Positions 25,782 to 52,600 of a DNA stretch of 64,000 nucleotides are shown here, piece after piece. The notes below the pieces were generated by a model that saw only the letters and a list, made by a program, of their open reading frames with translations, was not told the origin of the DNA and searched no databases. The DNA comes from Lachnospiraceae bacterium (GTDB lineage Bacteria > Bacillota > Clostridia > Lachnospirales > Lachnospiraceae), in assembly GCA_017938145.1 (NCBI GenBank), contig JAGBCB010000034.1:1-64000 (forward strand), written 5' to 3'. Position 1 is the stretch's first letter, and each line of letters starts with the position of its first letter. The position numbers and the translations under genes were made by a program.

Positions 25782-27863
25782 CTATTCTTCCAAATTCAAT
25801 TTCCTGCGCCGCTCCATTTCCGCAATAGCAGCTTCCAAATCTATCTCATCCTCCAAATAGTCGTTAAAGACACCGGTAAACACCTCGCTATCCACACCGA
25901 AATACACGCTGCCACCAGCATATAAATCATACCACTCCTTTGTGAAAGGCGTATCTGTGTAGGAAGCTTTGTCTGCCAATATGAAGGAATCCTGCTTACC
26001 AAGCATATACTTGGAAAATGCCGAAATGTAATCTAGCACTGCCGAAAGATTTTGGGACTCCGGATTTACCGCCATAAAGGTTAAGGTTCCGAAATTTTTC
26101 ATGCCATCTTCCAGCTTTGGCATGCCAAGCATTCCAAGCTCATCTCTCTCGCCTGCATTTTTCTGCAAAGCATCAAGCGTATCGGAATACACATTGTAAA
26201 AATAATAAAACTCCGGTAACTCTCCTCCGGTCAGCCATGGAGTCCGCGCCTCAATTTCAGGAGAAATATCACCACCATAGGAGAGTTCTTCCACCACTTT
26301 GCTTTCCATGAGCCATGTAGTATCCCCAATGCTTTTTAGCGTTTTAGCATAGTTCCGGAACAATTCCGTATCAAAGGTATCATACCTGCTTAGATACTGC
26401 CCAAATAATTCTTCTTTCAGCACATAGAAAGAAATATCTGCAAAGCTTTGGTTGGTTTCCCGTGTCTTGCGGGTAAACATAAGCATTTCTTCGAAATCCA
26501 TGGAAGAAAAATCCACGTCCTGACCGGCGCAATACTCCTTATGATATACAATTCCCGGAACAGCCAGCATTACCGGAACCATCCAGATGTCGCCCTCCTC
26601 ATTCCGGGCCAGCTCGCTTAAATATGGAAAACAGGCATCTATATATTCTTCCACGCCCTCCACCTCATTCAATGGATAAAACACACCATTTTTACGAACG
26701 CTGTCGGAGCTTGGGGAACGGGAGCTCATCAGAAACATATCAAAATCCTTATCCTGGGCAAGCACTTTCAGTGCCAGCTCCTGGTCAGTTACTATTCTCT
26801 TTTCCATCTGGAAGCCGCATCCATAAGGGAAATCCTGGGTAAGCTCCATCTGCAAAAACTGAATCGGCGGGTTGTCCTGTCTTGTTTCTTCAATACAGAT
26901 GCGGTACACCTTTCCGTCTCTACGGTTCGCAAAAAAGACAAACCCCTTCTGATATTCTACCGGACGGTTCAAGCGTACCTCCTCCGGGTAAACTTGAGCT
27001 TCCGTGCCATCCGGTGTGCCATAATACAAGAATTCTCCATCTATCTGGAACTTGGAGTACACAAAGCCGGTGTCACAGCCTCCGAGCTCGTTAATGTTAC
27101 CGTCTATGTTTTTCCACCCGGCCTCAGCAAGAGTCACCTCCTGCGGATCAAATTCCAGAAAACCAAAATTCACACCGTCCACATAGCGGTAAATCATCAG
27201 ATTATCCCGGTCTGTCTCATATATAGCCACCGGAAGTTCCACATTCATCAGCTCAAGCTCCGGCTGGCTGTCCGCAAGCGAAACTCTTGCAATGCGATTA
27301 TATGAATATTCCAGTGATGTATCATCCTCATAATCCATGCGAAGTGGTTTCTTGTAGCGGCCAAGTACATAGATATGCTCTCCCACCACCTCAAGGTACG
27401 CAATATCCGAATACCCCTCCAGCTTTACCTTTTCTGTTACGGTCCACTGCATTGTATCAATTTCATACAGTACATAACAACCATAGTTGGAATGGTATAC
27501 CGCACAATATAGCTTATCCTCTCCTGCCAGCATACACCAACAGTCTCCGTTGCCAAATTCAAGCTTACGGCTTTCCATACAATTTCCTTCCAGATCATAT
27601 ACGGAAATCATCTGCTTTATCGGCTTATATACATACTCAGAGGCCGGCACCGGACCGGTATCTTCCTCCTCTTCCCATACCGCCTTACACACATACAGCA
27701 GGCCATTCGCGTCCACTGCCAAAGCGTCCGCCTCTCCGGCATTCTCATATGTAAACGGTGCAGTGTCCGCCTGGAGCAAGTCTTTATCCTGCTTGTTTTC
27801 CCGATTGCAGCCACAAAGCAACAAAATAACTATCAAAAATAACCAACTATAGCTTTTCTTCAT
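25782..27863 (-). CDS. Propeller-plus-SBP lipoprotein (cassette A)
   Basis: The 693-aa protein has a lipobox (LLLCGC, Cys 19). Residues about 35-330 show repeating aromatic/Gly blades (GLLYVCK, DKLYCAVYH, EHIYVLGRY, EFLYYGTPD, GKVYRICIE), suggesting a beta-propeller. Residues about 340-690 resemble an extracellular solute-binding fold (QELALKVLAQDKDFDMFLMS, EGDIWMVPVMLAVPGIVYHKEY). It is a paralogue of 45036-47072. The fusion of a propeller to an SBP in one lipoprotein is unusual. It follows the propeller lipoprotein by 12 nt. The cognate permeases are probably those at 32080-33647 on the other strand. The substrate is unknown. Confidence 0.75.
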   Translation of the reverse strand: MKKSYSWLFLIVILLLCGCNRENKQDKDLLQADTAPFTYENAGEADALAVDANGLLYVCKAVWEEEEDTGPVPASEYVYKPIKQMISVYDLEGNCMESRKLEFGNGDCWCMLAGEDKLYCAVYHSNYGCYVLYEIDTMQWTVTEKVKLEGYSDIAYLEVVGEHIYVLGRYKKPLRMDYEDDTSLEYSYNRIARVSLADSQPELELMNVELPVAIYETDRDNLMIYRYVDGVNFGFLEFDPQEVTLAEAGWKNIDGNINELGGCDTGFVYSKFQIDGEFLYYGTPDGTEAQVYPEEVRLNRPVEYQKGFVFFANRRDGKVYRICIEETRQDNPPIQFLQMELTQDFPYGCGFQMEKRIVTDQELALKVLAQDKDFDMFLMSSRSPSSDSVRKNGVFYPLNEVEGVEEYIDACFPYLSELARNEEGDIWMVPVMLAVPGIVYHKEYCAGQDVDFSSMDFEEMLMFTRKTRETNQSFADISFYVLKEELFGQYLSRYDTFDTELFRNYAKTLKSIGDTTWLMESKVVEELSYGGDISPEIEARTPWLTGGELPEFYYFYNVYSDTLDALQKNAGERDELGMLGMPKLEDGMKNFGTLTFMAVNPESQNLSAVLDYISAFSKYMLGKQDSFILADKASYTDTPFTKEWYDLYAGGSVYFGVDSEVFTGVFNDYLEDEIDLEAAIAEMERRRKLNLEE

Positions 27864-27875
27864 TTTCGTCTCCTT

Positions 27876-29132
27876 TTACGGTATCAGCTTCTTTACCTTC
27901 ACAATAGGTATCCGGGTAGTTCCCAACTCATACCATCCGTCTGGTTCCTCCACTAAAAGCTGCACCATCTCCTCTCCTCCGCCGAGACCGGCATTTAGAG
28001 TATACAGGGCGTACACATTTTTTCCATCCGTATACAACCGCTCTACCCGTAAGGTAGTATCTTCATCCATGAGCTGGTAGCTTTCGATTTCTTTGCTTTC
28101 CCTATGGATTCGGAATAAGTCAGACCCTATTGTACACCAAAAATACTTCTCTGTTACGGTAAAACACTCAAAAGAATAATATCCTTTTTTTAAAATCTCC
28201 TCTGTCACAAAATATGTTTCCATATAATAACCGCTACAGTCATAGACCTCCTTCTCTAAGGTGTCCAGGTCCACAACTATCATCCGTAAACCATTTACAT
28301 AATACACCTTATTTTCCGTGAGACAACAACTGATGATTCTGCCATCTCCAATCTTTTTCACATCTTTTTTGCCATCGGCGTTACTAGCGTTACTAATAAG
28401 CACCTGTGTTGTTATACCTTCATGCTCTTGATAACCGAAATGATACTCCCCATAGAAGCTTAATGCCCTCTTCCCCTCATCCTTAACAGGCTCCGGATTT
28501 TTAAAATCCAGCATATAGTACTCACTTTCATAGTACGTCAACATCTCGCCGTCTATTTCAATTTCCCCGCCATCTACAATACATTCTACATAAATTCCAT
28601 TCTCATCTACAAACAGTTGCGACACACTTTCACAATGCTTGCCCATGCTGTATACCAGCTCTACGGTTCCTTCTGCCGGATTATACGCATAGATATCTCC
28701 GTTTTGAACGCCTTCCAACGTATATATTTCATAATCGTCAACAACAAAATATAATATACCCTGCAGATAATACAGCTCTCTGGCCGGCAACGCCACTGCC
28801 AGCTCTGCCACCCCGTCCTGCAAGCAGTAAATAAAACCGTCCTGACCCTGGTTGACGAAATACACCATTCCGGTATCGGAAGCTATACAGAAAAAGGATT
28901 CTCTTTCGTCTCCATAATGCAAACGATTAAAATCATTGTATTCCGGCAGTATCACAGCCGCCTTTGTTTCTTTCCCTACTTTTTTTCCAACAACATTTTC
29001 TTCTGTAATGACCTTTGATTCTTCCTTAGCAGATGAAAACAGGTCATTTTCCTTGGTGGAATTATTTTCCTTGTTACAACCTGCCATACAGAATACAAAA
29101 AGAAGCAGAATACAAAGTGTAGTTTTCTTCAT
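27876..29132 (-). CDS. Propeller-type lipoprotein (cassette A)
   Basis: This 418-aa lipoprotein (FCMAGC, Cys 19) has a short charged linker and then repeated blades such as GMVYFVNQGQDGFIYCLQDG, LYYLQGILYFVVDDYEIYTLEG, GIYVECIVDGG and KVYYVNGLRMIVVDLD, resembling the DUF5050-type surface propellers. It is related in layout to the three tandem lipoproteins at 47135-50732. SD GAGGAGAC. It is followed immediately by the propeller-SBP gene and preceded by a 20-bp hairpin that separates it from the small secreted-protein gene. It probably sits on the outer face of the membrane and may sense a ligand or dock the SBP. Confidence 0.7.
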   Translation of the reverse strand: MKKTTLCILLLFVFCMAGCNKENNSTKENDLFSSAKEESKVITEENVVGKKVGKETKAAVILPEYNDFNRLHYGDERESFFCIASDTGMVYFVNQGQDGFIYCLQDGVAELAVALPARELYYLQGILYFVVDDYEIYTLEGVQNGDIYAYNPAEGTVELVYSMGKHCESVSQLFVDENGIYVECIVDGGEIEIDGEMLTYYESEYYMLDFKNPEPVKDEGKRALSFYGEYHFGYQEHEGITTQVLISNASNADGKKDVKKIGDGRIISCCLTENKVYYVNGLRMIVVDLDTLEKEVYDCSGYYMETYFVTEEILKKGYYSFECFTVTEKYFWCTIGSDLFRIHRESKEIESYQLMDEDTTLRVERLYTDGKNVYALYTLNAGLGGGEEMVQLLVEEPDGWYELGTTRIPIVKVKKLIP

Positions 29133-29165
29133 GATGTTAGTCTCCTCGAAATTGTGTGATTATTG

Positions 29166-29220: not shown

Positions 29221-29568
29221 TTATCTTTTTGGACAAGTTTTCTCCTCATGAGATGTATAATATGTATAACTGTATTTCCAATCCGACATGGCTTTATTAC
29301 ATGTATCACAGCGATATTTTACGTATACGTCAAATACTGCATGTCTGCAGTCATCTGTTATTGAATATTCTCCTTCATAATCACCGTCAATATCTACCCA
29401 ATATGTATAGGTTATTGTTTCTGTGCCTTGAAATCTATGTTCCTCTCTTAATGACAGATGTTCATGCCGGCAAGTATCAGCGGCTGCCGCATGGGTAAAT
29501 ACCGGTGTACTTAAGAACAGACTAACTGCTACAGTAAGTGCAATTGTTGCTTTTTTTAATATGCTCAT
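29221..29568 (-). CDS. Small Cys-rich secreted protein
   Basis: The 115-aa precursor has a Sec signal peptide (KKATIALTVAVSLFLSTPVFTHAAA, cut near 28-30), giving a mature chain of about 86 aa rich in Tyr and charged residues. There are five cysteines: CRHEH, DDCRH, RCDTCNK (a CxxC pair) and TCPKR. Paired Cys/His motifs allow either a zinc knuckle or disulfides. It is not a recognised family. Its promoter (29636-29664) carries the same operator as the peptide and permease genes. Possible roles are an antimicrobial or signalling protein, or an extracytoplasmic partner of the importer-like lipoproteins downstream. The SD is weak. Confidence 0.7.
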   Translation of the reverse strand: MSILKKATIALTVAVSLFLSTPVFTHAAAADTCRHEHLSLREEHRFQGTETITYTYWVDIDGDYEGEYSITDDCRHAVFDVYVKYRCDTCNKAMSDWKYSYTYYTSHEEKTCPKR

Positions 29569-29989: not shown

Positions 29990-31903
29990 TTACATTTCCC
30001 CCATCCTTTTCCTCATAATAGAGCCATGTTGCTTATTTTTACAATATATATCTATTGTCAGGCACTTTTTCACATTCTGGCACCATTCCGGGTCTTCCGA
30101 CACCATCGGAAGACCCTTTTGTTTTCTTTCGTTCCAAACTAGTCCATACATATTTCGGCTTAAATAGCTTGCACTTCCGGCACGCAAAGAGTCCCTCATG
30201 ATTTTTTGATTCAATGCGCTGGATTCTTCATAGCGCCCCTCATTACCAATACAGCTTGCATAGGAAGTCATTACAAACCCATACATGCTTAATATAGGAG
30301 CAACGGTACATTGCTTATCCAAAAAGTTAAAATAGTCTTTCAATATGCTCCAATATGTATTTTCTTTACTCATCCCTGTAAAAGTAGCAATATTTTTAAG
30401 AATCGTAACCTCCATATTTGTCAAATATTTTTCTGCCTGCCGCTTTTTTCCGTTTTTAGAAGTATGGGGGGGCATTTCTGCCATTGCAACCTCCATGGAA
30501 ATCGTCAGTTCCAAAGCATTTTTTGCATGTTCAATAAATTCTTCTTTACTCAATTTTTCCTGCTTATACATTAGACATGCTTCTTCAATACAAACATACT
30601 GTTGATTTATTACAATATCCATTGGAATACTTTGCTTTATGTTCTTCAATAAAGCTTCTGCATCATTAAATCTCCTTTGGTTTAATGCCTCTCTATACTC
30701 CTCTTCCCAGCGTAAAACCTCCTGTTTTTCTGTAGCAATCCTACCCCGGTGCAAGGCGGAAGATAAGTTCAAGCGTTCAAACAAACGTCTTGCATTTGAT
30801 GTATGAATATTATTCTTTTTGTTTTCCAACCGCACCAGATTCCTTTTGGAACAATAACCTTCTTCCTCCAGCTCCGTTGCGGATATACCAAGCATTTTTC
30901 TCCTTGTCCTTATAACATCATTAATACAGTATATTTCCCACTCCCTGTAAAAGCAGGTATAGCCATTGGTGCATTTTGAAATACCATAACTATCGTACTG
31001 CTCACCAATTACCGCATAGAACTCCCCGGTCTGCTTCATCTCCTTTTCGTATTCTTCTGCCTGCTTTGCCGAAAGCAGCATCCGGTTTTCTAACAGCCAG
31101 CACAAATAGTTCTCCTTTTTTTCCAGCAGTTCCATGACAAAAAACAATTTATTGGCATCACGCAGCCAATCCAGAACAAGGTTAATGATTTTTAAGTTGC
31201 TCTCCGTTTTATTTTTAATATCCGCCAGTCCATATTCTGCCGGATTGTACTTATCTGTCTGCCTGCAATAATATAGTACAATTTTAGCCCCGAGCATAGC
31301 CCTGCTCAACAGGTCAAACCGGTTTAACTGCACATAATCCAACAACTGCAAATAGCGGTCTTCTGCATCTACAGGAGTACTGTAGTTCCAGTACTCCAAC
31401 ACCAGATTTAGTTCCTGCACTGAGAGTGCTCTATCACAAAGCGGTCTCTCTTCCACCTTGGGAATTGTCAGCGAAACTGCCTCTTCCAGCACTTCAAACC
31501 GTTTCTGCTCCGGCGCCTTAAGTATTTCCATCCACTGAAGACGCATCACCAGAACAAACTGCCCGGAAACCACATCCCTTTTACCATATTTCTTTTCATA
31601 TTGCTCCAGCAGTGCCGCCGCATAGTCTGGCTGCATATCATCCAGACTGTCTAAAATGCGCTGCCGTTCCAACCAGTCCTCATATTCCTCCGGTTGTAAA
31701 AAGCATTCATAGCTATATCCGGACTCTCCCAGCCTCGCTAACAACCTGCTTCTTACCATATAATCCGGATATCGTTCTCCGCGCACCACTTTCCCCATAA
31801 AGCTTTCATCATAAATGCCATCTCCCAGTGCATCTCTGTCAATGCTTCTTTTTTCTCTTTGCAGTTCTAAAAACTTGCCAAACTGTTCTGCTTCCAATAA
31901 CAT
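29990..31903 (-). CDS. Large dual-HTH, helical-repeat regulator
   Basis: The ATG at 31903 follows AGGAGA at 8 nt spacing; a TTG at 31930 has no room for an SD. The product is about 637 aa, wholly cytoplasmic and helical. An XRE-like domain is at about 5-60 (FGKFLELQREKRSIDRDALGDGIYDESFMGKVVRGERYPD) and a second at about 325-380 (INDVIRTRRKMLGISATELEEEGYCSKRNLVRLENKKNNIHTSNARRLFERLN). The rest is rich in TPR-like helix pairs (e.g. YREALNQRRFNDAEALLKNIKQSI). A promoter TTTACA-16-TATAAT lies upstream. It resembles peptide-responsive (RRNPP-type) regulators, apart from the internal second HTH. It is the best candidate for the GACA-N4-TGTC binding protein. Confidence 0.75.
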   Translation of the reverse strand: MLLEAEQFGKFLELQREKRSIDRDALGDGIYDESFMGKVVRGERYPDYMVRSRLLARLGESGYSYECFLQPEEYEDWLERQRILDSLDDMQPDYAAALLEQYEKKYGKRDVVSGQFVLVMRLQWMEILKAPEQKRFEVLEEAVSLTIPKVEERPLCDRALSVQELNLVLEYWNYSTPVDAEDRYLQLLDYVQLNRFDLLSRAMLGAKIVLYYCRQTDKYNPAEYGLADIKNKTESNLKIINLVLDWLRDANKLFFVMELLEKKENYLCWLLENRMLLSAKQAEEYEKEMKQTGEFYAVIGEQYDSYGISKCTNGYTCFYREWEIYCINDVIRTRRKMLGISATELEEEGYCSKRNLVRLENKKNNIHTSNARRLFERLNLSSALHRGRIATEKQEVLRWEEEYREALNQRRFNDAEALLKNIKQSIPMDIVINQQYVCIEEACLMYKQEKLSKEEFIEHAKNALELTISMEVAMAEMPPHTSKNGKKRQAEKYLTNMEVTILKNIATFTGMSKENTYWSILKDYFNFLDKQCTVAPILSMYGFVMTSYASCIGNEGRYEESSALNQKIMRDSLRAGSASYLSRNMYGLVWNERKQKGLPMVSEDPEWCQNVKKCLTIDIYCKNKQHGSIMRKRMGEM

Positions 31904-31998
31904 TTCATTCTTCTCCTGTACATTCTCCAAATCAAGAAAATTTTATATTAATTATACCAATTTTGGAAATGTTGTAAACAGTAACCATATAAAAATAA

Positions 31999-32079: not shown

Positions 32080-32892
32080 ATGAAACAAAACGTATCAAAA
32101 AAAGAACGGCTTTCCTGGAACCAAAAGTGCATCCTCTGCCTGGTGCCAAGTCTCCTGGGCTTATTGTTATTCTATATTTTCCCGTATCTGCGGGTACTAT
32201 ATTATTCCCTGATTAACAATCAGTTTGATAAGGATTTTGCAGGCTTAAAAAACTACATAGACGCCATTCAGAATGAGTATTTCCGGCTGGCCTTTAAAAA
32301 TAGCATCCAGCTCATTATCACCTGCATACCGGTACTCATTGTACTGGCCATTCTGGTGTCTCTTGGCCTTACCTTTTTATTAAAACGCTTTAAAATGGTG
32401 CGGGTAGCCTTTATTCTGCCTATGCTTATTCCAACCGCCAGCGTGGTACTATTTTTCCAGAAGGTATTTAGCGGCATAGAAAACGAACTGCCTCTGTATC
32501 TTATGTTTCTCTGGAAGAACATCGGCATCTGCATTATTCTGCTGACGGCAGCCCTTACCACCATTGAAGAGGACATTTACGAGGCTGCCCGGTTAGACGG
32601 TGCCGGAGGTATGATGCTGCATTTCCAGATTACGCTGCCCCTCATTTTGCCAACCATCTCCTTCTCCACCCTAATGGCCATTGTTAACTCCTTTCGGATT
32701 TTCCGGGAAAGTTACCTGTATTACGGCGGCAACTATCCGCCAAACTACGGGTACACCCTGCAATATTACATGAACAACAACTTTTTAAAATTTGACTATC
32801 AGGCCCTGGCCTCCTCCTCTGTGCTGACCTCTTTTCTGGTGGCAGCCATTGTTGCGGTCTTTTTTCTGATAGAACGGAGGTACCAGCGATGA
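32080..32892 (+). CDS. CUT1-type ABC permease 1 (cassette A)
   Basis: This 270-aa membrane protein has about six helices, the first at 18-38, and a full EAA loop (YEAARLDGAGGMMLHFQITLPLILP, about 168-192). The segment FRESYLYYGGNYPPNYGYTLQYYMNNNFLKFDYQALASSSV is almost identical to the paralogue at 44239-45024, which defines the subfamily. It is the first gene of a three-gene operon under the shared operator, with GAGGAGG before the ATG. It overlaps the next permease by 4 nt (ATGA). No ATPase is encoded nearby. The binding protein is probably the propeller-SBP at 25782-27863. Confidence 0.88.
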   Translation: MKQNVSKKERLSWNQKCILCLVPSLLGLLLFYIFPYLRVLYYSLINNQFDKDFAGLKNYIDAIQNEYFRLAFKNSIQLIITCIPVLIVLAILVSLGLTFLLKRFKMVRVAFILPMLIPTASVVLFFQKVFSGIENELPLYLMFLWKNIGICIILLTAALTTIEEDIYEAARLDGAGGMMLHFQITLPLILPTISFSTLMAIVNSFRIFRESYLYYGGNYPPNYGYTLQYYMNNNFLKFDYQALASSSVLTSFLVAAIVAVFFLIERRYQR

Positions 32893-33647
32893 AGCATCTA
32901 TTGCGTTTTCTCTTATATTTGCTGGCGGCGGTATTTTTTCTTCCAACCCTTGCCACCCTTCTGCTGTCCTTTTTCCCGGAGGGTGAACTGTCACTGTCCG
33001 GCTATGACGACCTGTTCTTTGACTGCTTCAGTTTTTATACCATGTTCTGGAACTCCGTCATTTATGCATACGCTATTACTGCTCTGCAACTGGTAGTCAT
33101 TCTTCCTGCCGCCTTTGCCTTTTCCTTTGCCCGCTTTAAGCACAAAGAGACTCTGTTTTTCTTCTATATCATCCTAATGATGATGCCGCTGCAGGTTATG
33201 ATTCTGCCAAATTACATTGGTCTCAGGGATATGGGTATATTAAATACCAGAGCCGGAATTATCCTGCCTATGATTTTCTCTCCCTTCGGCGTGGTAGTAC
33301 TGCGCCAGTATATGAAAAACATCGATGCCTCCGTTATTGAGGCTACCCGTTTGGAAACCAACTCCATGGTGCGCCTTTTGCTTCATGCCGTGGCACCTCA
33401 AGTACAAGTATGTCTGTATGCCGTGGGGATTTTTGTTTTTGCAGAAAGCTGGAACATGCTGGAACAGCCAATGCTCCTTTTACAGGACAAAAACCTTAAA
33501 ACCTTAACCATATTTTTCAACAATAGCACTTCCTACGGCGACCAAATTCTTTATCCGGCCTCCGTGGTGTTTATGATACCTATTTTACTGCTATACCTGT
33601 TCTTCCACCGTGAACTGGAAAGGGGGCTTACCTTACATGACTCATAA
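32889..33647 (+). CDS. CUT1-type ABC permease 2 (cassette A), degenerate EAA loop
   Basis: This 252-aa membrane protein resembles AraQ/MalG-type permeases (LMMMPLQVMILPNYIGLRDMGILN; ESWNMLEQPM). The EAA loop is altered: IEATRLETNSMVRLLLHAVAPQVQ lacks the conserved Gly and ends AP rather than LP. The paralogue at 43459-44211 keeps EAARLETGS and ILP. The change may weaken or alter coupling to an ATPase. Translation is coupled to permease 1 by the ATGA overlap, and the next small gene overlaps its 3' end by 11 nt. Confidence 0.85.
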   Translation: MKHLLRFLLYLLAAVFFLPTLATLLLSFFPEGELSLSGYDDLFFDCFSFYTMFWNSVIYAYAITALQLVVILPAAFAFSFARFKHKETLFFFYIILMMMPLQVMILPNYIGLRDMGILNTRAGIILPMIFSPFGVVVLRQYMKNIDASVIEATRLETNSMVRLLLHAVAPQVQVCLYAVGIFVFAESWNMLEQPMLLLQDKNLKTLTIFFNNSTSYGDQILYPASVVFMIPILLLYLFFHRELERGLTLHDS

Positions 33648-34131
33648 AAAGGATACTACCAATAAGCCGTTATTCTTCTTGCTGCTTCTCTCCCTGTTGT
33701 TTTACGGAGGTATGCTGTTTTTGTCTGCTTTTGCAGATGACATTCATTATGCAAGGTTGCCTCGGGTTACGGCCGAAACGCCAAAGAAGCAATCCTTTTC
33801 TTACACGATAACCCTTAATAACGGTGCTTCTTCCTCTCAGACCAACCTTTTTCCTGCCCTTCCAAAGGATATGGTAGACTCCGGTCAGGTCTTTATTGTC
33901 AGAACCTCCGTGCAAGACGATTTCACCTCCTATTACGCACAAAAGGTCTCCATTGTCATTGACACAGAAAAGAAAAACGACGATTACTATGCCATTACCG
34001 ACGGCATTTCCAGCCGGGATTTGGTCATTCTCACCGGCTATGAAGCCCTTTCTGATGGCGATGAAGTAGCTCTGCTAAAAGAAAAAAAGGAAGCATCCAA
34101 GGTACAGACAGACACTCTGTTTCAGAAATAA
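33637..34131 (+). CDS. Membrane-anchored protein with fusion-protein-like tail (cassette A)
   Basis: The 164-aa product (start at 33637 behind AGGGGG, overlapping permease 2) has one N-terminal membrane helix (about 11-31) and an exposed domain. FPALPKDMVDSGQVFIVRTS...AQKVSIVIDTEKKNDDYYAITDGISSRDLVILTGYEALSDGDEVAL looks like the C-terminal membrane-proximal domain of HlyD/AcrA-type adaptors (VPxxAL...V.V...GL..GD.VV), without the coiled coil or lipoyl parts. The gene at 43013-43435 has the same build and position in cassette B. An adaptor-like domain beside import-type permeases is unexpected. Confidence 0.6.
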   Translation: MTHKKDTTNKPLFFLLLLSLLFYGGMLFLSAFADDIHYARLPRVTAETPKKQSFSYTITLNNGASSSQTNLFPALPKDMVDSGQVFIVRTSVQDDFTSYYAQKVSIVIDTEKKNDDYYAITDGISSRDLVILTGYEALSDGDEVALLKEKKEASKVQTDTLFQK

Positions 34132-44238: not shown

Positions 44239-45024
44239 TTACTCTGCGCCGTTCTTCCTTCCACTGCACAACGCCACAAAGCCCGCCAGCAGCAGCGTAA
44301 TCATCACGGATGACGCCGCCATGGACTGGTAATTCAGTTTCAAAAACTGGTTGTTCATGTAATATTGCAACGTATAACTGTAATCCGGCGGATAGTTTGC
44401 ACCGTAGTACAGGTAGCTTTCCCTGAAGGTACGGAAGCAGTACACCACACCCAAAATCATCGTAAACTGAATCGGTTTTGCACAAACCGGCAGCGTGATA
44501 TACGCATGCATGGTCAGCGGTCCTGCCCCGTCCATGCGGGCTGCCTCGTAAATTTCCGGTTCCACCGAAGAAAAGGCCGCCACAAGAATTACCACGCCCA
44601 TGCCGATGTATTTCCATAGGAAAATGCTGTAAATAGGAAGCTCCGATTCCACCTTCTCAAACACCAGAAGAAAGGCCGCCACTACGCTGACCGAAGGCAG
44701 AAACAGCGGTAAAATCGACAATTTCCGCACAAAACGCCCCATCCGTCCCGCATATAAACTGAGCAGGGAAATTAAGATTGCCAACAACAGAAACAGCGGT
44801 ACGCAGATTGCAATCAGCTTTAATGTATTAAAACATGCCAGCTGGAAATATTGATTTGTCAGCACGTTTTTGTAATTCCGAAGCCAGACAAATTCCTTCT
44901 GGTACTGCCCCTTCAAAACGGAATAATAAAGCACCTTTAGAAAGGGCAGAAAGTAAAACAGAAGAAGTCCTGCCGCTGCCGGTAAAATACATAATTTTAA
45001 CTTGGTAAAGAATTTTAGTTTCAT
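44239..45024 (-). CDS. CUT1-type ABC permease 1 (cassette B)
   Basis: The start at 45024 (MKLKFFTKLKLCILPAAAG) follows AAGGTG and lies 11 nt after the propeller-SBP stop; an in-frame extension to 45150 would overlap that gene deeply. The 261-aa product has about six helices and the EAA loop YEAARMDGAGPLTMHAYITLPVCAKP. FRESYLYYGANYPPDYSYTLQYYMNNQFLKLNYQSMAASSV is nearly the same as in the cassette A permease. No ATPase is nearby. Confidence 0.88.
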   Translation of the reverse strand: MKLKFFTKLKLCILPAAAGLLLFYFLPFLKVLYYSVLKGQYQKEFVWLRNYKNVLTNQYFQLACFNTLKLIAICVPLFLLLAILISLLSLYAGRMGRFVRKLSILPLFLPSVSVVAAFLLVFEKVESELPIYSIFLWKYIGMGVVILVAAFSSVEPEIYEAARMDGAGPLTMHAYITLPVCAKPIQFTMILGVVYCFRTFRESYLYYGANYPPDYSYTLQYYMNNQFLKLNYQSMAASSVMITLLLAGFVALCSGRKNGAE

Positions 45025-45035
45025 GTAATTGCACC

Positions 45036-47072
45036 TTATTCCCCGTAATACATATTCACCACACGGTTCAGTTCCTTTATCACTTCTTCTGCATCTGTCA
45101 CCTGACCTGCCGCATACAAATAATAGCTGGTAAACAGCCCATCCGGCCATCCAAACACCATCTCACCCTTACGGAACAGTTCACAGACATCCCGCATCAC
45201 AACATCCTGTGCATAACGCTCTGTGTTGGAAGACAAGAACGTGGCAGGATTGGCAATATAAAGCTCGGACATTACTTTCACAAAGTTAAGCAGTTCTTCC
45301 TTGTTCTCTGAATTTGGATTCAACACCAGAAACTGACTGCTTACCTGCACAGTTTCCTCCTCGCCAAACATACCGGGCACGATACACACACGAATTCCTT
45401 CCGCCCCTAAATATTTCTCAAAGCTCCAGGTATCACGTGCACCGGTTTCATCCAGAAACACCCTTGCTGCACCGCGCCTTTTTCGGGATGCCTCCCGTTC
45501 CGCACCGGAAAGTGATTCCTCTTCTTCCAGACGTTCTACTCTTCCAAAATTTATATAAGAATTCCGGTAAAAGGCATCGCTATAATCCTCATTTACATTT
45601 CGTTCACTATATAGGAAATTAAGAATTTCCCGAAATTCCTTCGTATCAAAATTGATGGTATCCTCATTGCGGTACTTCCATAAATAATTCTGCAACAAGG
45701 TTCCCTGCATCGGCTGCAAGTTATACCAGCCGAATTCGCCGTTTGCATGAAGCACCTTAGCCGCCTCGCATAAGTCCGGCATGGTTTTGATATTTTCTAT
45801 GGACAGCCCATACTTATTCAGATTCTGTTCATTGTAAACTAAACCGCCGGCATATGCCTCCAATGGCAGCATCCAGATATCCCCGTTATAGGTGGCCCCC
45901 TGCTTTACACATGGCCAGCACTCCGCCCAGTAGGTTTCAATAACCTCCGCCGGAATCGGCAAATAAGCCATGGCATCCCGAAGCGCCGTCGCCTCCGCCA
46001 TGTCGGTATTCATAATCACAAAGTCATAATCCTTGTCCTCTGCCAACACCTTTAACGCCAGCTCCTCCCAGTCGATGACCTCTAAATCAATGTTATAGCC
46101 TGCCCACTCTGTAGTAGAAAGTTCACTGGTAACATAGCCCTTTAACGGTTCGTTCCAGGTTACGTAGGCTTCCGTGTCAAAATGATAAACCTTATCCGTA
46201 TCGCCCTCCGGAACATACAGCCTTCCCCCGGCTATCTGCGGATTTGCCGGGGTGACATATACCGGCTGTGCCGTAAACCGGGACACCTTCTTTGGTTCCC
46301 TCGGATGAAAACAAACATACTGTGCACTGTACAGCATGCCATACATCAGGTCCGTTTTATCATCATACACCAAATCCGACAGCTCGTAGGTGAAATTGCT
46401 GGCATATTCTTCGGACAATTTTCCCGTATCCGCATGATACTCCTGAAAATAATAGGAACCGTCCTCATCCTGCACATTCAGCCAATACAAATCTCCCGAA
46501 CCATGAGTCATATTTTTCATTCGTTCTACCGGAACCGTCTCCAGCACAGCGGTATCAAGATGATATACAAAAAACTGCTTTCCGGCTTCCGTAAAACAAG
46601 GCATCATCAGGGTATGTTCCCCCGCCGCCATCTGAAGCACCGTATGAAAACCATCCAGCGTAGCCACCAGACGGCTCTCTCCCGTGGTAACATTAAGTTC
46701 CAGCAAAGAACTTTTCAAACCACGAAAGAAATATAACGTATCTCCATACATACATAGAGCAGAGAAATTTAACGCACTAAGCGGCGGTTCTTCTCCATAA
46801 TACCCATAGGTTTCCGGTGCTTCCACATCTGCCGTTATCAAAAACTGCGCCACAGGCGTCCCATCCATAGCACACTTATAAATGGTGGAATCACCGTTGG
46901 CTGCATAGTAGTAAAACTCTCCTGCTTCATCCACACAAAAGGAGGACAACCCGGGAATGGAAAGTTCTGTGATTGTTTTGTCTTTTTGTTCTATCACTTC
47001 CTCCTGTGGCTTGTTACAGCCGACAAACAGCAGGAAAAACACCAAAAATACTACCAGTCTTTTATAGTTCAT
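45036..47072 (-). CDS. Propeller-plus-SBP lipoprotein (cassette B)
   Basis: The 678-aa lipoprotein (lipobox LFVGC, Cys 19) has blade-like repeats over about 40-330 (GEFYYYAANGDSTIYKC, DTLYFFRGLKSSLLEL, GDLYWLNVQDEDGSYYFQEY, GRLYVPEGDTDKVYHF). A solute-binding-like half follows (WEELALKVLAEDKDYDFVIMNTDM, NGDIWMLPLEAYAGGLVYNEQNLNKYGLS). It is the paralogue of 25782-27863; the matching segments align in the same order. CGGAGGTGG lies before the ATG. It is followed directly by its permeases, which supports an uptake role. Confidence 0.78.
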   Translation of the reverse strand: MNYKRLVVFLVFFLLFVGCNKPQEEVIEQKDKTITELSIPGLSSFCVDEAGEFYYYAANGDSTIYKCAMDGTPVAQFLITADVEAPETYGYYGEEPPLSALNFSALCMYGDTLYFFRGLKSSLLELNVTTGESRLVATLDGFHTVLQMAAGEHTLMMPCFTEAGKQFFVYHLDTAVLETVPVERMKNMTHGSGDLYWLNVQDEDGSYYFQEYHADTGKLSEEYASNFTYELSDLVYDDKTDLMYGMLYSAQYVCFHPREPKKVSRFTAQPVYVTPANPQIAGGRLYVPEGDTDKVYHFDTEAYVTWNEPLKGYVTSELSTTEWAGYNIDLEVIDWEELALKVLAEDKDYDFVIMNTDMAEATALRDAMAYLPIPAEVIETYWAECWPCVKQGATYNGDIWMLPLEAYAGGLVYNEQNLNKYGLSIENIKTMPDLCEAAKVLHANGEFGWYNLQPMQGTLLQNYLWKYRNEDTINFDTKEFREILNFLYSERNVNEDYSDAFYRNSYINFGRVERLEEEESLSGAEREASRKRRGAARVFLDETGARDTWSFEKYLGAEGIRVCIVPGMFGEEETVQVSSQFLVLNPNSENKEELLNFVKVMSELYIANPATFLSSNTERYAQDVVMRDVCELFRKGEMVFGWPDGLFTSYYLYAAGQVTDAEEVIKELNRVVNMYYGE

Positions 47073-47134: not shown

Positions 47135-48331
47135 TTAGTAAATTTGTCCGGTTTCGCCGATTTCTAAGTCATAATAAAACAAAGTATATTTAGATTTTCC
47201 GTCTATATATATTTTATCCTCCGCATAAATTGCCTTTGGTGTCAGGAAGATATTATAAATTCCATTGCTTGCTTCCGTTGGAATCCAAAAAAGTTCCGGT
47301 TCTTTCATGGTCTCATTCCACCGATAAAAGAAAGTATACATTTTATCTGACTTAAGTTCTTCTCCGTTCCACATACGACCACTCTGATTGTTATATCCAT
47401 CTCTGGAAAAATAAATGGTTTCTCCATCACTTACCACTGTCTGGTCCGCATAAAGTCCTAATTCATACTCCCGATTAGTCTTCAAATTCCAGACACGGAA
47501 TTTTGTTGATAAATCCCGTGCATTGCCTGCATCTGACATGCATAAATAATTTCCTGCCAGAAGAGGAAATATTCCACGTTGTTTTAATACTTTCGTGCTT
47601 TCTCCATCGAACACTAAAAGATATCCCTTCCACCGTAGTTTAAAATTCGCAATATGACTAATTCCATACTCTGTGCTATATGAAGGAAAATCACTATATA
47701 AAAAAGTATCATCAATTATCACTTCATTCTTTCCGTCTAAATCCATAACAGAAAGTCCATTCCAACTCAAATGTATTTTTTCATCTTTAATCACAAATGG
47801 ACCGGAATGTTCCTCTGCTACCTGCTCTATTTCTCCGGTTTCCACATGCACCCTCATAATGGCAGTATGTTCTGTATTATAATATAACCATTCTCCACTT
47901 AACTGTAACATGCTGGGAAACTTATCATTTGTCTGACAAATCAGTCGTTTATTTTCTCCATTATAATCACTCACATAGATGGCATTTTCATTTTGGTCAA
48001 CATAATACAAATTTCCTTCCTCATCATAGGTCACATACCCATAATTCATCAAATTGGAATTACGGATGGAATCCTCTTTGTCTACAAAACCGTTAAGCTC
48101 TGAAATATCCATCCGTTCCAAACCGTTTATGTACCTCTGCGCAAGCACATCTGCCGTTGGCGTTGGTGTTGCCGCCGGTGTGTTCGTCGGCGTAGGAAGC
48201 GGCGTTTCTGTTGGAGCAACTGTCTCGGTTGGTGTTGGTGTCATATTTGACGTTTCGCTATTATCCTTTGTAGTACAGGCACATAACAGCGCAAGTGTCA
48301 AAGCACTAATATACAATAATTTCTTTTTCAT
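47135..48331 (-). CDS. Propeller-type lipoprotein, tandem copy 3
   Basis: This 398-aa lipoprotein (LLCAC, Cys 19) has a Thr/Pro-rich linker (TPTPTETVAPTETPLPTPTN, about 30-62) and a propeller-like domain (NYGYVTYDEEGNLYYVDQNENAIYVSDYNGENKRLIC, GEWLYYNTEHTAIMRVHVETGEIEQV) ending in YDLEIGETGQIY. It is clearly homologous to the next two genes. CGGAGGAGG precedes the ATG. The gap to the SBP gene is 62 nt, the largest in the operon, so there could be extra regulation there; no clear promoter was found. Confidence 0.8.
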   Translation of the reverse strand: MKKKLLYISALTLALLCACTTKDNSETSNMTPTPTETVAPTETPLPTPTNTPAATPTPTADVLAQRYINGLERMDISELNGFVDKEDSIRNSNLMNYGYVTYDEEGNLYYVDQNENAIYVSDYNGENKRLICQTNDKFPSMLQLSGEWLYYNTEHTAIMRVHVETGEIEQVAEEHSGPFVIKDEKIHLSWNGLSVMDLDGKNEVIIDDTFLYSDFPSYSTEYGISHIANFKLRWKGYLLVFDGESTKVLKQRGIFPLLAGNYLCMSDAGNARDLSTKFRVWNLKTNREYELGLYADQTVVSDGETIYFSRDGYNNQSGRMWNGEELKSDKMYTFFYRWNETMKEPELFWIPTEASNGIYNIFLTPKAIYAEDKIYIDGKSKYTLFYYDLEIGETGQIY

Positions 48332-48366: not shown

Positions 48367-49554
48367 CTAGTAAATCACCCCGGTTTCGCCGGTTTCTAAA
48401 TCATAGTACAAACAGTGATACACCCACTTGCCCTCCTCTTTCATCTGAGGCATAGCATACAAAGCCTTTGGCGTAATGTACATCTCATAAAAATTGTCCG
48501 AATCGATACACCAGATTTCTTCCGTGGTTTCACCATTCCACTTAAAAATAACAGCGTCCCGCTCAGGCGCAGCTTCACCTTCTTTTATTGTTGTGTCTTT
48601 ATACATCATTTTTTTATAATAAAAATTCTTTCCGTCACTCACTATCGTCTGATCCGTCCGTGAATTTATCACGAAGCGTTCCTTTGTTTCCAGGTTCCAA
48701 ACATAGCGCACCTCTGCATTTTCTGCGTCCACTATACTGAAATAGTTTCCGGCCAACAACGGAAGATATCCTTTTTGCTTTAGAAGCATCAGTTTTTCTC
48801 CATCCACTTTTACGATATAGTCCTTATGTTTTTTGGTCGTCTGGTTTTCCCTGCTTACTGCTTCCATCATCCAATAGCCATCACCCTTTGTAAAAAAACC
48901 GGTGTAAAACCCTGAAGTATCCTGTACCAGCTTACAATCCTTTCCGTCCAAATCCGAGGAAGAAAAGCCTCCATTTTCCCTATCCTCCCAGTACAATTTG
49001 CCATCCTCCAGCCGGAAATGTCCGGAATATTCCTCACAAATTTGTTCTACTTCTCCTGTTTCTATATGTACTCTCATAATAGCGGTGTACTGGGTACCAT
49101 AATAAAGCCAGTCCCCTTCCAACCGCATCCAGCCCCAGGCATCACTGCCTTCGAAAATCAGCCGTTTATTTTCCCCCTTATAATCACTGGCATAAATAGA
49201 ATTGGTATTCCGGTCTACATAGTAAATGTTTTTCTCCGCATCATAGGTCAGATATCCATAATTTAGAAAGTTGGAATTCCGCCGGGAGGTTTCCGCATCC
49301 ACAGAACCACGAAGTTCTGTCCAGTCCACGGTTTCCAGGGAATTTATGTAGTTCTCCGCTCTTTGGTATGCCTGTTGATACTCTAACTGCTTCATCTCCA
49401 ACGGCGACGGCGTACCGGTTGGCGCCGGGGTGTTTGTGACTTCCCTCCACTCCAGCGGAGTTGGGGATAATGTATCATTCCCAGTATCTGTTGTATTACA
49501 TGCACATACCATTGCTAATGACAGCATACCTATGCATAATATTTTCTTCTTCAT
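48367..49554 (-). CDS. Propeller-type lipoprotein, tandem copy 2
   Basis: This 395-aa lipoprotein (MVCAC, Cys 19) has the same plan as its neighbours: a short Thr/Pro linker, RNSNFLNYGYLTYDAEKNIYYVDRNTNSIYASDYKGENKRLIF, GDWLYYGTQYTAIMRVHIETGEVEQICEEYSGHFRLEDGKLYW, and the C-terminal YDLETGETGVIY. The shared motifs place it closest to copy 3, suggesting the more recent duplication. CGGAGGAC precedes the ATG. The gap to the next copy is 35 nt. Confidence 0.8.
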   Translation of the reverse strand: MKKKILCIGMLSLAMVCACNTTDTGNDTLSPTPLEWREVTNTPAPTGTPSPLEMKQLEYQQAYQRAENYINSLETVDWTELRGSVDAETSRRNSNFLNYGYLTYDAEKNIYYVDRNTNSIYASDYKGENKRLIFEGSDAWGWMRLEGDWLYYGTQYTAIMRVHIETGEVEQICEEYSGHFRLEDGKLYWEDRENGGFSSSDLDGKDCKLVQDTSGFYTGFFTKGDGYWMMEAVSRENQTTKKHKDYIVKVDGEKLMLLKQKGYLPLLAGNYFSIVDAENAEVRYVWNLETKERFVINSRTDQTIVSDGKNFYYKKMMYKDTTIKEGEAAPERDAVIFKWNGETTEEIWCIDSDNFYEMYITPKALYAMPQMKEEGKWVYHCLYYDLETGETGVIY

Positions 49555-49604
49555 AAATGTCCTCCGTTTTCTTATGTGTTTTCCCTGGCACCGCTTCCCA
49601 CAAA

Positions 49605-50732
49605 CTAGTATATCTTCCCGGTTTCGCCGGTTTCCAAATCATAATACCAAAGCTCATACAGCCAGTCTCCGCCGGCACTGTCCAATATCCAATACAGCAT
49701 ATTTGGTGTCAGAAATTTATTTCGTGCATACAATTTTGATTCCATACAAAACAATTCTGTTTTTTCAGCACCGTCAAATCGATACATTATTTTTTTCTCA
49801 TCCATTCCGGCACAGGCATATAAATAAATTCCGTCACTGACACAATTATCATCATGAAAATTTAGTTCGGTTTCTGTGTCTCTTTCCAAATCCCAAATCT
49901 TTTGTCTGCCGGAGCCAAAACAAATCCACTTTCCGGCAAGTAACGGTTCTCTGATTCCTTTTTCGATATAACACGGTATGTTTTTTGTTTCCTCAAAGGT
50001 GAGCAGATGTCCCTCCATCATAAATGCATAGTCATCCTTGTTGTAAGCATTTCCCAGCCAAAGTCCGTTTTCTGCCACCTGCAGACAATGCAGCATCAGC
50101 TCCTGTTTATGTAACAATGTTGGATTACCTCCATCCGGTTCTGCTACATAAAATCCGTCAAACCCGTTAATATAAAGCTTTTCCTGCCAGATAAGAAATG
50201 CTTCGCAGGACTGCCCCCACACTATTTCTGCCTCATGAGTTTCCAAGTGGATACGTTTTATGTAGTTATCCCCGGTGCTTAAGTAATATAGCCACTCACC
50301 TGCAATTTGCAGGTTTTTTCCACTGTCTGAGGTTAGCTGCCACCGGTTTTTTCCGTATCGGTCAGCAACAAAAATTCCACCGATATTTCTGTCTGCAAAA
50401 TAAATGGTACCAGCCCCATCATAGGTCAGATAACCGAAATTATGGAGCACATTGGAATTCAGCAAAGAAGCTTCTTTTCCCGCATACAGCGAAAGCTCTG
50501 CCAGTTCCATCTGTTCACCTGATTCCATTGCTTCTATAATCTGCGCCCGCTTAGTTAAAATCCTGTCTTCCTTTTCAGGGTCTCCCTGCCCTGTAGCAGA
50601 TGTCCATTGCTCCGGTATCGGAGTTGCCGTAACACACTCTTTGGGACTGTTTTCCTGCTCCTTTCCTTCCCCGCAGCCACCGAGTAAGCCTAAGAAAGCG
50701 AACAGTATAATTACAGTTGTAATTCTTTTCAT
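49605..50732 (-). CDS. Propeller-type lipoprotein, tandem copy 1
   Basis: This 375-aa lipoprotein (GLLGGC, Cys 20) is the most divergent of the three copies but keeps LLNSNVLHNFGYLTYDGAGTIYFADRNIGGIFVADRYGKNRWQL, GEWLYYLSTGDNYIKRIHLETHEAEIV and the C-terminal YDLETGETGKIY. The linker is Glu/Lys-rich rather than Thr/Pro-rich. It directly follows the anti-sigma factor gene (19-nt gap). GGAGGAAA precedes the ATG. Confidence 0.8.
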   Translation of the reverse strand: MKRITTVIILFAFLGLLGGCGEGKEQENSPKECVTATPIPEQWTSATGQGDPEKEDRILTKRAQIIEAMESGEQMELAELSLYAGKEASLLNSNVLHNFGYLTYDGAGTIYFADRNIGGIFVADRYGKNRWQLTSDSGKNLQIAGEWLYYLSTGDNYIKRIHLETHEAEIVWGQSCEAFLIWQEKLYINGFDGFYVAEPDGGNPTLLHKQELMLHCLQVAENGLWLGNAYNKDDYAFMMEGHLLTFEETKNIPCYIEKGIREPLLAGKWICFGSGRQKIWDLERDTETELNFHDDNCVSDGIYLYACAGMDEKKIMYRFDGAEKTELFCMESKLYARNKFLTPNMLYWILDSAGGDWLYELWYYDLETGETGKIY

Positions 50733-50751
50733 TTGTTTCCTCCAAACTCTT

Positions 50752-52116
50752 CTACTGACTGATATGGTAACCTTCTTCCATGGTTCCTGTCAGGGTATAG
50801 CGGTATGTGTATCCAAACTGCGCCGGAAGATTTACATGCTCTACGCATTCTCTGTAGCGTCCATCCTTATCCCGGATGCCAATACGGAACATCAAATCTT
50901 TCGATTCGGACCAGTTGCCGTCAAAATCCTCCGGTAAAAATTCAAACCCGAAAACCTCTCCCTTGTCCAGTTTGCTTCCATTGGCATTGGATACCACCTG
51001 ATTGCTGTACAATTCACCATTCATGTAGCAATACAGCGATATCATAGAAAGCTCATCCTCCGTCAGGTTCGCCAGCTCAATACCTATTTTCTTTGTTGGA
51101 ATCCACTGGCTGTAGTCCATGACATAAGCAGTATCAATTAACTCCGCCTTTTCCATAAGCAGCTGAAGCTTTCTTACATTCTTTCCTACCGCCTTAATGT
51201 CTTCTCCGGCAAACGAACTTGCCATATCCGTTGTGATGGTCCGATATGCCGGATATCCTCCCCAGCTGTATTCGTAGGTTACTTCTCCAAGATTGTCGAT
51301 GACTGCCATCAATACATAGGCATAGCCATCCATCGCATCTATTTTTTCAATAACACCATCATAAGAATCCCCACTGACCTTCCAATCCAGTAAAAACTTC
51401 CAGCCGTAAGGCTCTGCTGTGGTTTGAAGTTCATTGGTAAAGCTTCCAAGGGTTGTACTCATATTTAAAGCATTTGCGGTTTTATTATTTGCCGGCATAT
51501 CACCCACATACAAATGGGCTGTCTGATAAACCGCAGAAGTAATGGCAGAAATATTTTTTCCGTCTGCCCAGAGAATCCGGTCTCCCAAGCGAACCTCCAT
51601 AATAGGCGCATCCGCAATATAGGTTTGTTCCATACTGTTTTCATAAAAAGGGTTTGCTCTCACGCTTTTAAAGGAAATGGTGACAATGCCGCCCTCTTCT
51701 TCTTTAAATTCCACATCGGAAATGCGGTAGCGGCTGTCCATCAGGGCACCGTTGACCATAAGCACATTGCCCTTGACATCCAACTGACAGGCCACATATT
51801 CACCGGAAATGGCGGTTCCCAAAAAGGAGCTGCTGATTATTACTACCAGTAACAGCATAGCCAAGGCTGCCACAACAGCCACGATTATCTTTTTCCGGTT
51901 GCTTTTTCTTGCTTTCTTTAAAAAATCGATTTCTTCTTTTTCTTTTGCATCTTCCACAGGCTCCGCCTCCGGGTCTTTCATGAAAGAAAGTACCTTACGG
52001 CAGTTTTCGCATTCTTTTAGATGTTCTTCTATCATATGATTGGTGACTTCATTTGTCAGTTCATCAATGTAAGACGGGAACAAATCCCGTACCACTTCAC
52101 AAGGCAATTTAATCAT
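50752..52116 (-). CDS. Zinc-type transmembrane anti-sigma factor
   Basis: The 454-aa protein has an N-terminal ZAS/zf-HC2 domain (MIKLPCEVVRDLFPSYIDELTNEVTNHMIEEHLKECENCRKVL, with the His-x3-Cys-x2-Cys motif), a basic stretch, one membrane helix (about 77-98: IIVAVVAALAMLLLVVIIS) and a large extracellular domain (about 350 aa) of beta-rich character. It should hold the ECF sigma factor inactive until an outside signal is sensed. Its ATG overlaps the sigma gene's end by 8 nt, the usual coupling for such pairs. Confidence 0.9.
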   Translation of the reverse strand: MIKLPCEVVRDLFPSYIDELTNEVTNHMIEEHLKECENCRKVLSFMKDPEAEPVEDAKEKEEIDFLKKARKSNRKKIIVAVVAALAMLLLVVIISSSFLGTAISGEYVACQLDVKGNVLMVNGALMDSRYRISDVEFKEEEGGIVTISFKSVRANPFYENSMEQTYIADAPIMEVRLGDRILWADGKNISAITSAVYQTAHLYVGDMPANNKTANALNMSTTLGSFTNELQTTAEPYGWKFLLDWKVSGDSYDGVIEKIDAMDGYAYVLMAVIDNLGEVTYEYSWGGYPAYRTITTDMASSFAGEDIKAVGKNVRKLQLLMEKAELIDTAYVMDYSQWIPTKKIGIELANLTEDELSMISLYCYMNGELYSNQVVSNANGSKLDKGEVFGFEFLPEDFDGNWSESKDLMFRIGIRDKDGRYRECVEHVNLPAQFGYTYRYTLTGTMEEGYHISQ

Positions 52117-52600
52117 CTTGCTCCACCATTCCTTTCTTCAGCTTCTCTTTTCCTCGATAAAAGGTAACCCGGGCCCAGTTTTCCGACTTTCCCATAATTT
52201 CACCGATTTCCTTAAAGGAAAGATTGCCGAATATTCGTTGATACATAACCTCTCTGTACGGCTCCGGACAGGAGTGTAACTGTTTCATTAAATCCACCCT
52301 GGCAAGGGTATCCATTGCATTCTGTTCTGCCGATTCCACCGAAAATTCGGCCTGCTCCAGTTCTTCCAACGTCTTCATTTCCGGATGCTTCCGCCGATAA
52401 CTTAGAAGCTGGTTCTTTGCAATGGCACACAGCCAGGTTGAAATTTTACAGCTTTCATCAAAGCGGTCAATGCTCTTTAACGCCTGATAAAAGGTTTCCT
52501 GGGTGAGTTCTTCCGCCAGGTCTTCGTCATGGGTTTTACTTAGCAGATATTTAAATACCGTCCGGGCATATTCCTGATAGATTTCCTCCATGGGCTGCAT
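52109..52600 (-). CDS. ECF-type RNA polymerase sigma factor
   Basis: This 163-aa group IV sigma factor has region 2 at about 5-70 (EYARTVFKYLLSKTHDEDLAEELTQETFYQALKSIDRFDESCKISTWLCAIAKNQLLSYRRK) and region 4 at about 105-158 (LHSCPEPYREVMYQRIFGNLSFKEIGEIMGKSENWARVTFYRGKEKLKKG). AGGAGGCGG precedes the ATG. It heads the 10-kb operon running to 42575, so it probably drives its own transcription together with anti-sigma, lipoproteins and permeases. Confidence 0.95.
   Translation of the reverse strand: MQPMEEIYQEYARTVFKYLLSKTHDEDLAEELTQETFYQALKSIDRFDESCKISTWLCAIAKNQLLSYRRKHPEMKTLEELEQAEFSVESAEQNAMDTLARVDLMKQLHSCPEPYREVMYQRIFGNLSFKEIGEIMGKSENWARVTFYRGKEKLKKGMVEQDD

Follow-up and report, generated by a model that had tools for sequence, protein, structure and literature searches.

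Two ABC permease cassettes in a Lachnospiraceae genome carry an adaptor derived from membrane-fusion proteins

Gene content of the two cassettes

The 64,000-nucleotide stretch of Lachnospiraceae DNA analysed here, called the window (GenBank assembly GCA_017938145.1, contig JAGBCB010000034.1, positions 1 to 64,000), carries two paralogous cassettes, A and B, in which permeases of an ATP-binding cassette (ABC) importer type lie together with surface lipoproteins and a small adaptor related to membrane-fusion proteins (MFPs). An initial annotation of the window had described the two cassettes as sharing a gene set, and every gene it named is open at its coordinates in a check of open reading frames (ORFs). 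The common set consists of a lipoprotein that joins a propeller-like half to a solute-binding protein (propeller-SBP), two CUT1-like permeases and the small membrane protein referred to here as the adaptor; a third cassette elsewhere in the genome, C, has it too. The two permease motif strings singled out in that annotation (FRESYLYYG... and MMMPLQ...) were both found.

Cassette A is divergent. The forward strand holds permease 1 (32080–32892; BPD_transp_1, E 3.9e-14), a CUT1-like protein placed by trees in an MFP-associated branch, followed by permease 2 (32889–33647; BPD_transp_1, E 1.2e-5, with 25.6 bits slightly below the cut-off of 26.4; UgpE-like, 8e-23) and the adaptor (33637–34131), whose start is most likely near 33637, as the longer ORF overlaps its neighbour. 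The reverse strand holds a large helix-turn-helix (HTH) regulator of 646 aa (29990–31930), a secreted Cys/His mini-protein of 115 aa (29221–29568; pattern CxH, C, CxxC, H..C), a propeller-like lipoprotein of 418 aa with a lipobox by eye (27876–29132) and the propeller-SBP lipoprotein of 693 aa (25782–27863). The 418 aa protein has no Pfam match and is called a propeller from kinship and by eye. The propeller-SBP has no Pfam or NCBIfam match of its own and can be aligned with the copies in B and C.

Cassette B is a single run of ten co-directional genes on the reverse strand. It starts with an extracytoplasmic function (ECF) sigma factor (52109–52600; Sigma70_r2, 1.6e-15; Sigma70_r4_2, 3.9e-7) and an anti-sigma factor (50752–52116) made of zf-HC2 (1.8e-8), one transmembrane segment by eye and DUF4825 (1.2e-17). 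Three propeller-like lipoproteins follow, two with DUF5050 matches (49605–50732, 3.7e-8; 48367–49554, 3.2e-11) and one with a weak SGL match of 0.012 (47135–48331), which was pooled with its two neighbours as one family. Next come the propeller-SBP lipoprotein of 678 aa (45036–47072; SBP_bac_1, 5.4e-10 at residues 325–599), permease 1 (44239–45027; BPD_transp_1, 1.9e-8), whose start is most likely near 45027 because the longer ORF overlaps its neighbour, permease 2 (43459–44211; BPD_transp_1, 3.4e-6), the adaptor (43013–43435) and a small membrane protein of 143 aa (42575–43006). In MAFFT alignments, A and B are 48% identical in permease 1, 39% in permease 2, 26% in the adaptor (22% in a larger alignment) and 23% in the propeller-SBP. 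Outside the cassettes, an alanyl-tRNA-synthetase-like ORF of 590 aa, shorter than the usual enzyme, lies at 23648–25420.

The adaptor is a membrane-fusion protein without its middle

The adaptors of A and B match the NCBIfam family RND_mfp weakly at their C-termini (E 0.0054 and 0.001). An adaptor profile of 41 rows (A5) was searched in 299 family genomes, where it exceeded 110 bits in only two, the source genome (G000, three places) and G173 (one place, with a full cassette). Matches at E <= 0.001 occurred in 111 of the 299 in all, the weaker ones mostly in longer frames. Further, the N-terminal ~50 and C-terminal ~70 positions of the profile match, in several genomes, opposite ends of single frames of 469–587 aa (G198:C26, G207:C16, G206:C6, G190:C1 and G188:C15). 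The AlphaFold model of the B adaptor has a pLDDT of 92.6, and the first 27 matches in a PDB search with it are MFPs or MFP-containing pump chains by entry title, including 5a4g, a metal-site/membrane-proximal construct, and entries for MexAB, AcrAB, CusBA, BesA, ZneB, TriABC and MacAB. When A5 was compared with 16 full-length MFPs (A8) by hhalign, the membrane-proximal domain was aligned at E 8.5e-12, and the N-terminal anchor consensus lines of adaptor and MFPs look alike by eye.

Based on the end matches of A5, the model, the PDB matches, hhalign and the anchor consensus, the adaptor is an MFP that has kept its membrane anchor and membrane-proximal domain; the domain is identified by hhalign, the anchor by the A5 matches and consensus lines. 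In this it resembles the HlyD/MacA/AcrA-type MFPs (RND_mfp, TIGR01730). Unlike these, the window adaptors, at 140–164 aa and with no Pfam match, contain no lipoyl, barrel-sandwich or hairpin part, and their partner is an import-type permease pair.

The permeases form a branch of their own

Both permeases of each cassette are BPD_transp_1 proteins with an EAA motif, canonical in permease 1 and altered in permease 2, and Pfam and NCBIfam class them as sugar-type. The remaining permeases of the source genome share 21–36% identity with permease 1 of A, mostly over short pieces (the 36% covers only 59 residues).

A rebuilt permease 1 tree has 79 rows (46 cassette, 21 MFP-group and 12 ordinary rows), with the permease-2-type row OWNL008 left out; the first tree did not have B's own permease among its rows, and both trees gave long-branch warnings. 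In the rebuilt tree a branch with 95/79 support separates all 46 cassette rows from the rest, and the smallest set that encloses them has 47 rows (100/99); in the first tree the added member was L146. The 12 ordinary rows stand apart at 99/97, so the cassette permeases do not group with the ordinary permeases sampled. B sits with the identical L076 in a set of nine (100/100; L071–L074, L076–L078, L081), and the only well-supported set listed for A joins it with L038. The kinship of the A and C permeases is unsure, since the set of 11 that united them at 96/86 in the first tree is not among the well-supported sets of the rebuilt one. A pattern in the outer loop after the EAA motif of permease 1, Y-x-(L/I)-Q-x-x-x-N-N-x-F, is present in 46/46 cassette and 21/21 MFP-group rows and in 0/12 ordinary rows.

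Recurrence of the cassette

The source genome (3.24 Mb in 72 contigs, 78% complete) contains cassette C on another contig (G000:C53; L013), in the order regulator, mini-protein, two propeller-like lipoproteins, propeller-SBP, adaptor, permease 1 and permease 2. A permease 1 scan of genome contigs returned 49 loci, of which 45 (L038–L081 and L083) were treated as a clade, and L082 and L084–L086 were set aside as distant. By accession prefix the 45 loci represent about 40 genomes; one metagenome-assembled genome (MAG) holds L038, L076 and L083, and three other MAGs hold two loci each. Genes of fetched loci were called greedily as longest ORFs, with rough starts and small genes possibly missed, and recurrence was scored with profiles built from the three own copies (A, B and C). 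The families do co-occur in these other Clostridia, as the initial annotation had expected of a defined set: permease 2 was found in 42 of the 45 loci, the adaptor in 40 and the propeller-SBP in 38. All loci without a match for permease 2 (L073, L075, L083) or the adaptor (L042, L066, L073, L075, L079) miss it at contig ends.

Within the family the cassette is rare: of 299 genomes sampled, two have it (G000 and G173), and the adaptor profile found none in G288, the genus-mate in the sample. A deer-gut MAG (prefix JAGAQI01) holds an A-like cassette (L038), a C-like cassette (L083) and one that agrees fully with B in permease 1 and adaptor (L076), so the set of three is common to this MAG and the source genome. 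Relatives of the last gene of cassette B were found, among the 45 loci, in L076 only, the locus whose permease 1 is identical to that of B.

A sister family with complete membrane-fusion proteins

A permease 1 profile (A7), whose alignment does not include the ordinary permease of the window at 4580–5527, was searched over 391 class genomes and matched 47 of them at E <= 1e-45. The own cassettes scored 402–429 bits; the other 46 genomes contributed 49 matches of 167–253 bits. All 49 were fetched as 48 loci, 20 first and 28 later, and the profiles used on them were built from the cassettes and some of the first 20. An MFP-type gene is present in 45/48 loci, the misses (L154, L171, L185) all being at contig ends, and a gene of the MacB periplasmic core domain type (MacB_PCD) in 37/48. 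The 28 later loci, which played no part in profile building, gave 26 MFPs, 22 core domains and two MsmX-type ATPases. Of 17 such fourth proteins scanned, 14 exceed the Pfam MacB_PCD cut-off, L152 and L155 fall below it and L146 has no match; the two sister MFPs scanned contain HlyD_D23 or HlyD_3 plus Biotin_lipoyl_2. Short MFPs within the sister group (177 aa in L146, 122 aa in L156) imply that trimming may have occurred more than once. The MFP and core-domain genes of L160 (G653:C29) each appear to be split into two ORFs, through either sequencing error or decay.

As a control, 28 own-genome stretches (the window and the surroundings of other permeases, SBPs and ATPases, most of 3–4 kb and some overlapping) yielded neither an MFP nor a core-domain match; the adaptors of A and B were the only related matches. 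The core-domain profile (A9) had no match in G000 at E 1e-8. Six other cassette genomes (those of L061, L071, L072, L077, L078 and L081) have strong stand-alone MacB_PCD profile matches, E 7e-47 or better, so the two kinds of system may be present side by side.

Within this Clostridia permease family with MFP and MacB core domain, the window cassettes form a reduced branch. MacB-type systems are covered in PMC11466899. The sister group shares an MFP and the core domain with MacAB-type (type VII) ABC systems; it differs in having the core domain as a separate protein and in having permeases of another kind than MacB. The core domain is missing from the window cassettes.

Receptor lipoproteins and the mini-protein

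The propeller-SBP of B was modelled at a pLDDT of 85, with residues 35–300 almost all beta, followed by an SBP fold; the SBPs SmoF and MalE are among its best matches in the PDB. The CUT1-type SBP fold is thus assigned in B by the model and in A by alignment to B only, the A protein aligning with that of B, which has the SBP_bac_1 match. The other half is called propeller-like from its strand pattern and from the weak SGL match and DUF5050 of neighbouring lipoproteins, DUF5050 being a family that we take to be propeller-like. Relatives of the propeller-like lipoprotein of A occur in 11/45 loci, and several loci have more than one receptor gene per permease pair (L046, L062, L064, L074, L192). 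Multiple mini-protein or receptor copies per cassette were seen in L074, L081, L038 and L192, alternating with propeller genes in the first two. A 9 kb contig (L193; G173:C95) carries a propeller lipoprotein, a propeller-SBP and a mini-protein and no permease, so receptor and permease sets can be separate.

A and C additionally contain the mini-protein, which B and L076 lack. The family counts 21 ORFs in 18 loci, A and C included. Most members have C-x-H; the pattern further includes a C in the middle, C-x-x-C, which is C-x-C in L038, and an H and a C late in the protein. In the alignment (A10), four Cys columns and one His column do not vary, and the protein could bind metal. Its members have ordinary signal peptides by eye. 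Its profile, searched over the 299 family genomes at E <= 1e-4, picked out just G000 and G173, each with two copies, and these are also the two that have the adaptor; as G000 contributed to both profiles, the independent point is G173.

Genes resembling those of ribosomally synthesised and post-translationally modified peptide (RiPP) or bacteriocin clusters lie near some loci. Beside cassette C (L013:179–4552), a row of HPr-kinase-like, signal-peptidase-like, ABC exporter and nucleotidyltransferase-like genes looks like a RiPP cluster by eye, with a reverse-strand flotillin-like gene between the row and the cassette. Similar genes were seen by eye near L144, with other genes in between. In the MFP-group locus L156 (633–4088; G393:C29), a C39-peptidase-type exporter gene pair, identified by eye, lies on the same strand directly ahead of the SBP gene. 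These neighbours are a lead for a peptide role.

Regulatory settings

The view that a constant gene set is placed under different regulators holds up. B is tied to its ECF sigma/anti-sigma pair, with Sigma70_r2, Sigma70_r4_2 and zf-HC2 all matched, and ECF sigma genes also occur in L076 and upstream of the propeller-SBP in L041–L044, L047, L049, L053 and L065 (L044 only at E 4e-4). The HTH regulator accompanies the Cys/His protein in A, C, L038, L079 and L083, and the regulators of the last four are relatives of the one in A. Sigma or HTH profiles match in 13 of the 45 loci (10 + 3), the sigma match of L056 lying far off; beside the other cassettes these profiles detected no such regulator in the fetched stretches, some of which are short. 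Two more ECF-like genes were seen by eye in L040 and L054.

The initial annotation had linked A to a peptide/HTH-type circuit. RRNPP peptide-sensing regulators combine an HTH at the N-terminus and tetratricopeptide repeats (TPR) with a short cognate peptide. The regulator of A looks TPR-type by eye; its HTH_3 match (E 1.6e-4 at 340–390) lies mid-protein and slightly below the cut-off, HTH_31 reaches 0.086 at 16–68 and no TPR family is listed. Its neighbour is the Cys/His protein, not a short pheromone.

Candidates for the ATPase

As first annotated, neither A nor B has a linked ATPase among the window ORFs and profile matches. An unlinked ATPase is usual in this genome, because among contigs with SBP_bac_1 matches only C14 also has an OB_MalK ATPase. 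G000 encodes four ATPases of the OB_MalK type. One, on C23, exceeds the UgpC/MsmX cut-off (502 against 432 bits) and is an orphan; in the 6 kb stretch that holds it, a single further ORF reaches 250 aa, and this encodes a YitT-like membrane protein (by eye). D77, R104, E110 and K154 are the four residues tested by mutation in Bacillus subtilis MsmX (PMC7658222). The C23 protein has K43 and all four of these residues, with numbers transferred without direct comparison to the B. subtilis sequence, whereas the permease-adjacent ATPase on C14 has G, L, E and R at the four multitask positions. MsmX-type ATPases are linked in 4/48 sister loci (L147, L156, L160, L161); all four keep D77 and R104, while L160 has V for E110 and L147 has R for K154. 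An MsmX-level match in L084 was rejected, as this remote Alphaproteobacterial locus is outside the 45. Given the orphan in the genome and the four relatives with an ATPase next door, the absence of a linked ATPase does not point to a sensor.

Proposed mechanism and alternatives

With a probability of roughly 0.55, the cassettes are type I (CUT1-like) ABC importers that draw on an ATPase encoded elsewhere and carry a docking piece derived from an MFP. At the cell surface, a ligand, most likely bulky and glycan-like, would be captured by the propeller-like lipoproteins and the propeller-SBP. The two permeases would carry it inward, powered in trans by the orphan MsmX-type ATPase as the candidate. 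The adaptor would rest against the permeases from outside, probably at the patterned loop of permease 1, and hold or gate the receptor lipoproteins. As in the CUT1 sugar importers with a shared MsmX-type ATPase treated in PMC7658222, there are two BPD_transp_1 permeases, a CUT1-fold SBP, an unlinked ATPase and an orphan of multitask type. The cassettes differ from these in their own permease branch, remodelled outer loop, propeller-SBP fusion, MFP-derived adaptor and lack of regularly linked sugar enzymes.

Various observations weigh against such an importer. Known MFPs and MacB core domains serve in export or mechanotransmission, which argues for another direction. The Foldseek E-values of the adaptor are modest (best 0.0064, none below 0.001), with unrelated beta proteins such as reovirus sigma1 from rank 28. 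The propeller-SBP was not seen in seven of the 45 loci (L039, L052, L057, L067, L068, L070, L080) within the fetched stretch; in L067 the contig itself begins just ahead of the permease. Permease 2 has a changed EAA stretch, with ETN or ETG in place of DGA. The support of the cassette branch is moderate (92/75 in the first tree, 95/79 in the rebuilt one), and the loop pattern was written after the rows had been seen. No MsmX-type ATPase was found in the 45 loci among matches to E 1e-5; the strongest ABC match there (E 2e-46) is a 540 aa protein of L056 just upstream of the mini-protein, with the look of an oligopeptide ATPase by eye. The presence of an OB_MalK ATPase in 27/27 cassette genomes tested (those of 26 loci, and G173) speaks for the importer only weakly, since 10 of 14 control genomes have one too. 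Finally, no sugar enzyme regularly linked to the cassettes was found by eye in the fetched loci, where the gene that follows the adaptor looks like a large glycosidase in L067 and L068 only (ORFs of 695 and 834 aa).

One alternative is a mechanotransmission or export device in which the CUT1-like permeases and an ATPase drive MFP/MacB-type outer parts that move or remodel something outside, for instance releasing the Cys/His protein or surface lipoproteins, with the SBP-like part as sensor or load holder. The MFP and stand-alone core domain of the sister group, the restriction of mini-protein and adaptor to one pair of family genomes and the exporter pair of L156 (by eye) would fit it. However, the permease and SBP folds are import-type, the mini-proteins have signal peptides of the ordinary kind, and the window cassettes have lost the MFP middle, with no core-domain profile match in G000, so that such a device appears unlikely.

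More doubtful still is a sensory complex, the role initially suggested, tentatively, over a nutritional one, in which ligand binding to the propeller-SBP, permeases and adaptor would be relayed to the anti-sigma factor or the HTH regulator, while little or nothing is transported. Although regulators recur beside the cassettes, no ATPase is linked and some loci have several receptor genes per permease pair, the EAA motif of permease 1 is canonical, the SBP half has a CUT1-like fold, an orphan MsmX-type ATPase is available, and the ATPases linked in four relatives keep most multitask residues. Further, regulators were matched in just 13 of the 45 loci, though some of the 45 are short and L040 and L054 have ECF-like genes by eye. 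A sensory role is most easily possible as an added function. Of the initial picture, the constant set under differing regulators is supported and the preference for a sensory role is not; the MFP origin of the adaptor, the sister family and cassette C are additions to it.

Plain CUT1 sugar importers with the adaptor and propellers as incidental neighbours would suit the sugar-type permease labels and the SBP fold, but are the least credible option given an adaptor in 40/45 and an MFP in 45/48 loci with misses at contig ends, no adaptor or MFP in the other own-genome stretches searched and a separate permease branch (99/97).

Beyond the trans-energised importer, a bolder proposal, to which we give somewhat less than even odds, is a Clostridia class of hybrid ABC systems in which import-type permeases, propeller-SBP, MFP and stand-alone MacB core would form a conduit across the thick wall. 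The window branch would have been stripped to anchor and membrane-proximal domain, and A/C-type lineages would have added Cys/His mini-proteins that carry ligand to the receptors.

Significance

In searches of the open PMC literature, no description of this branch was found, and, judging by titles and the openings of abstracts, no paper turned up on the combination of import-type permeases with an MFP-derived adaptor. If the proposed reading is true, import-type and export-type parts are combinable, and the membrane-proximal domain would be a general docking piece for ABC permeases. The minimal adaptor of ~140 residues is a natural deletion experiment on which part of an MFP touches the permease. 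Gut and other Clostridia would then have an undescribed means of importing large molecules from their surroundings or of acting on them there.

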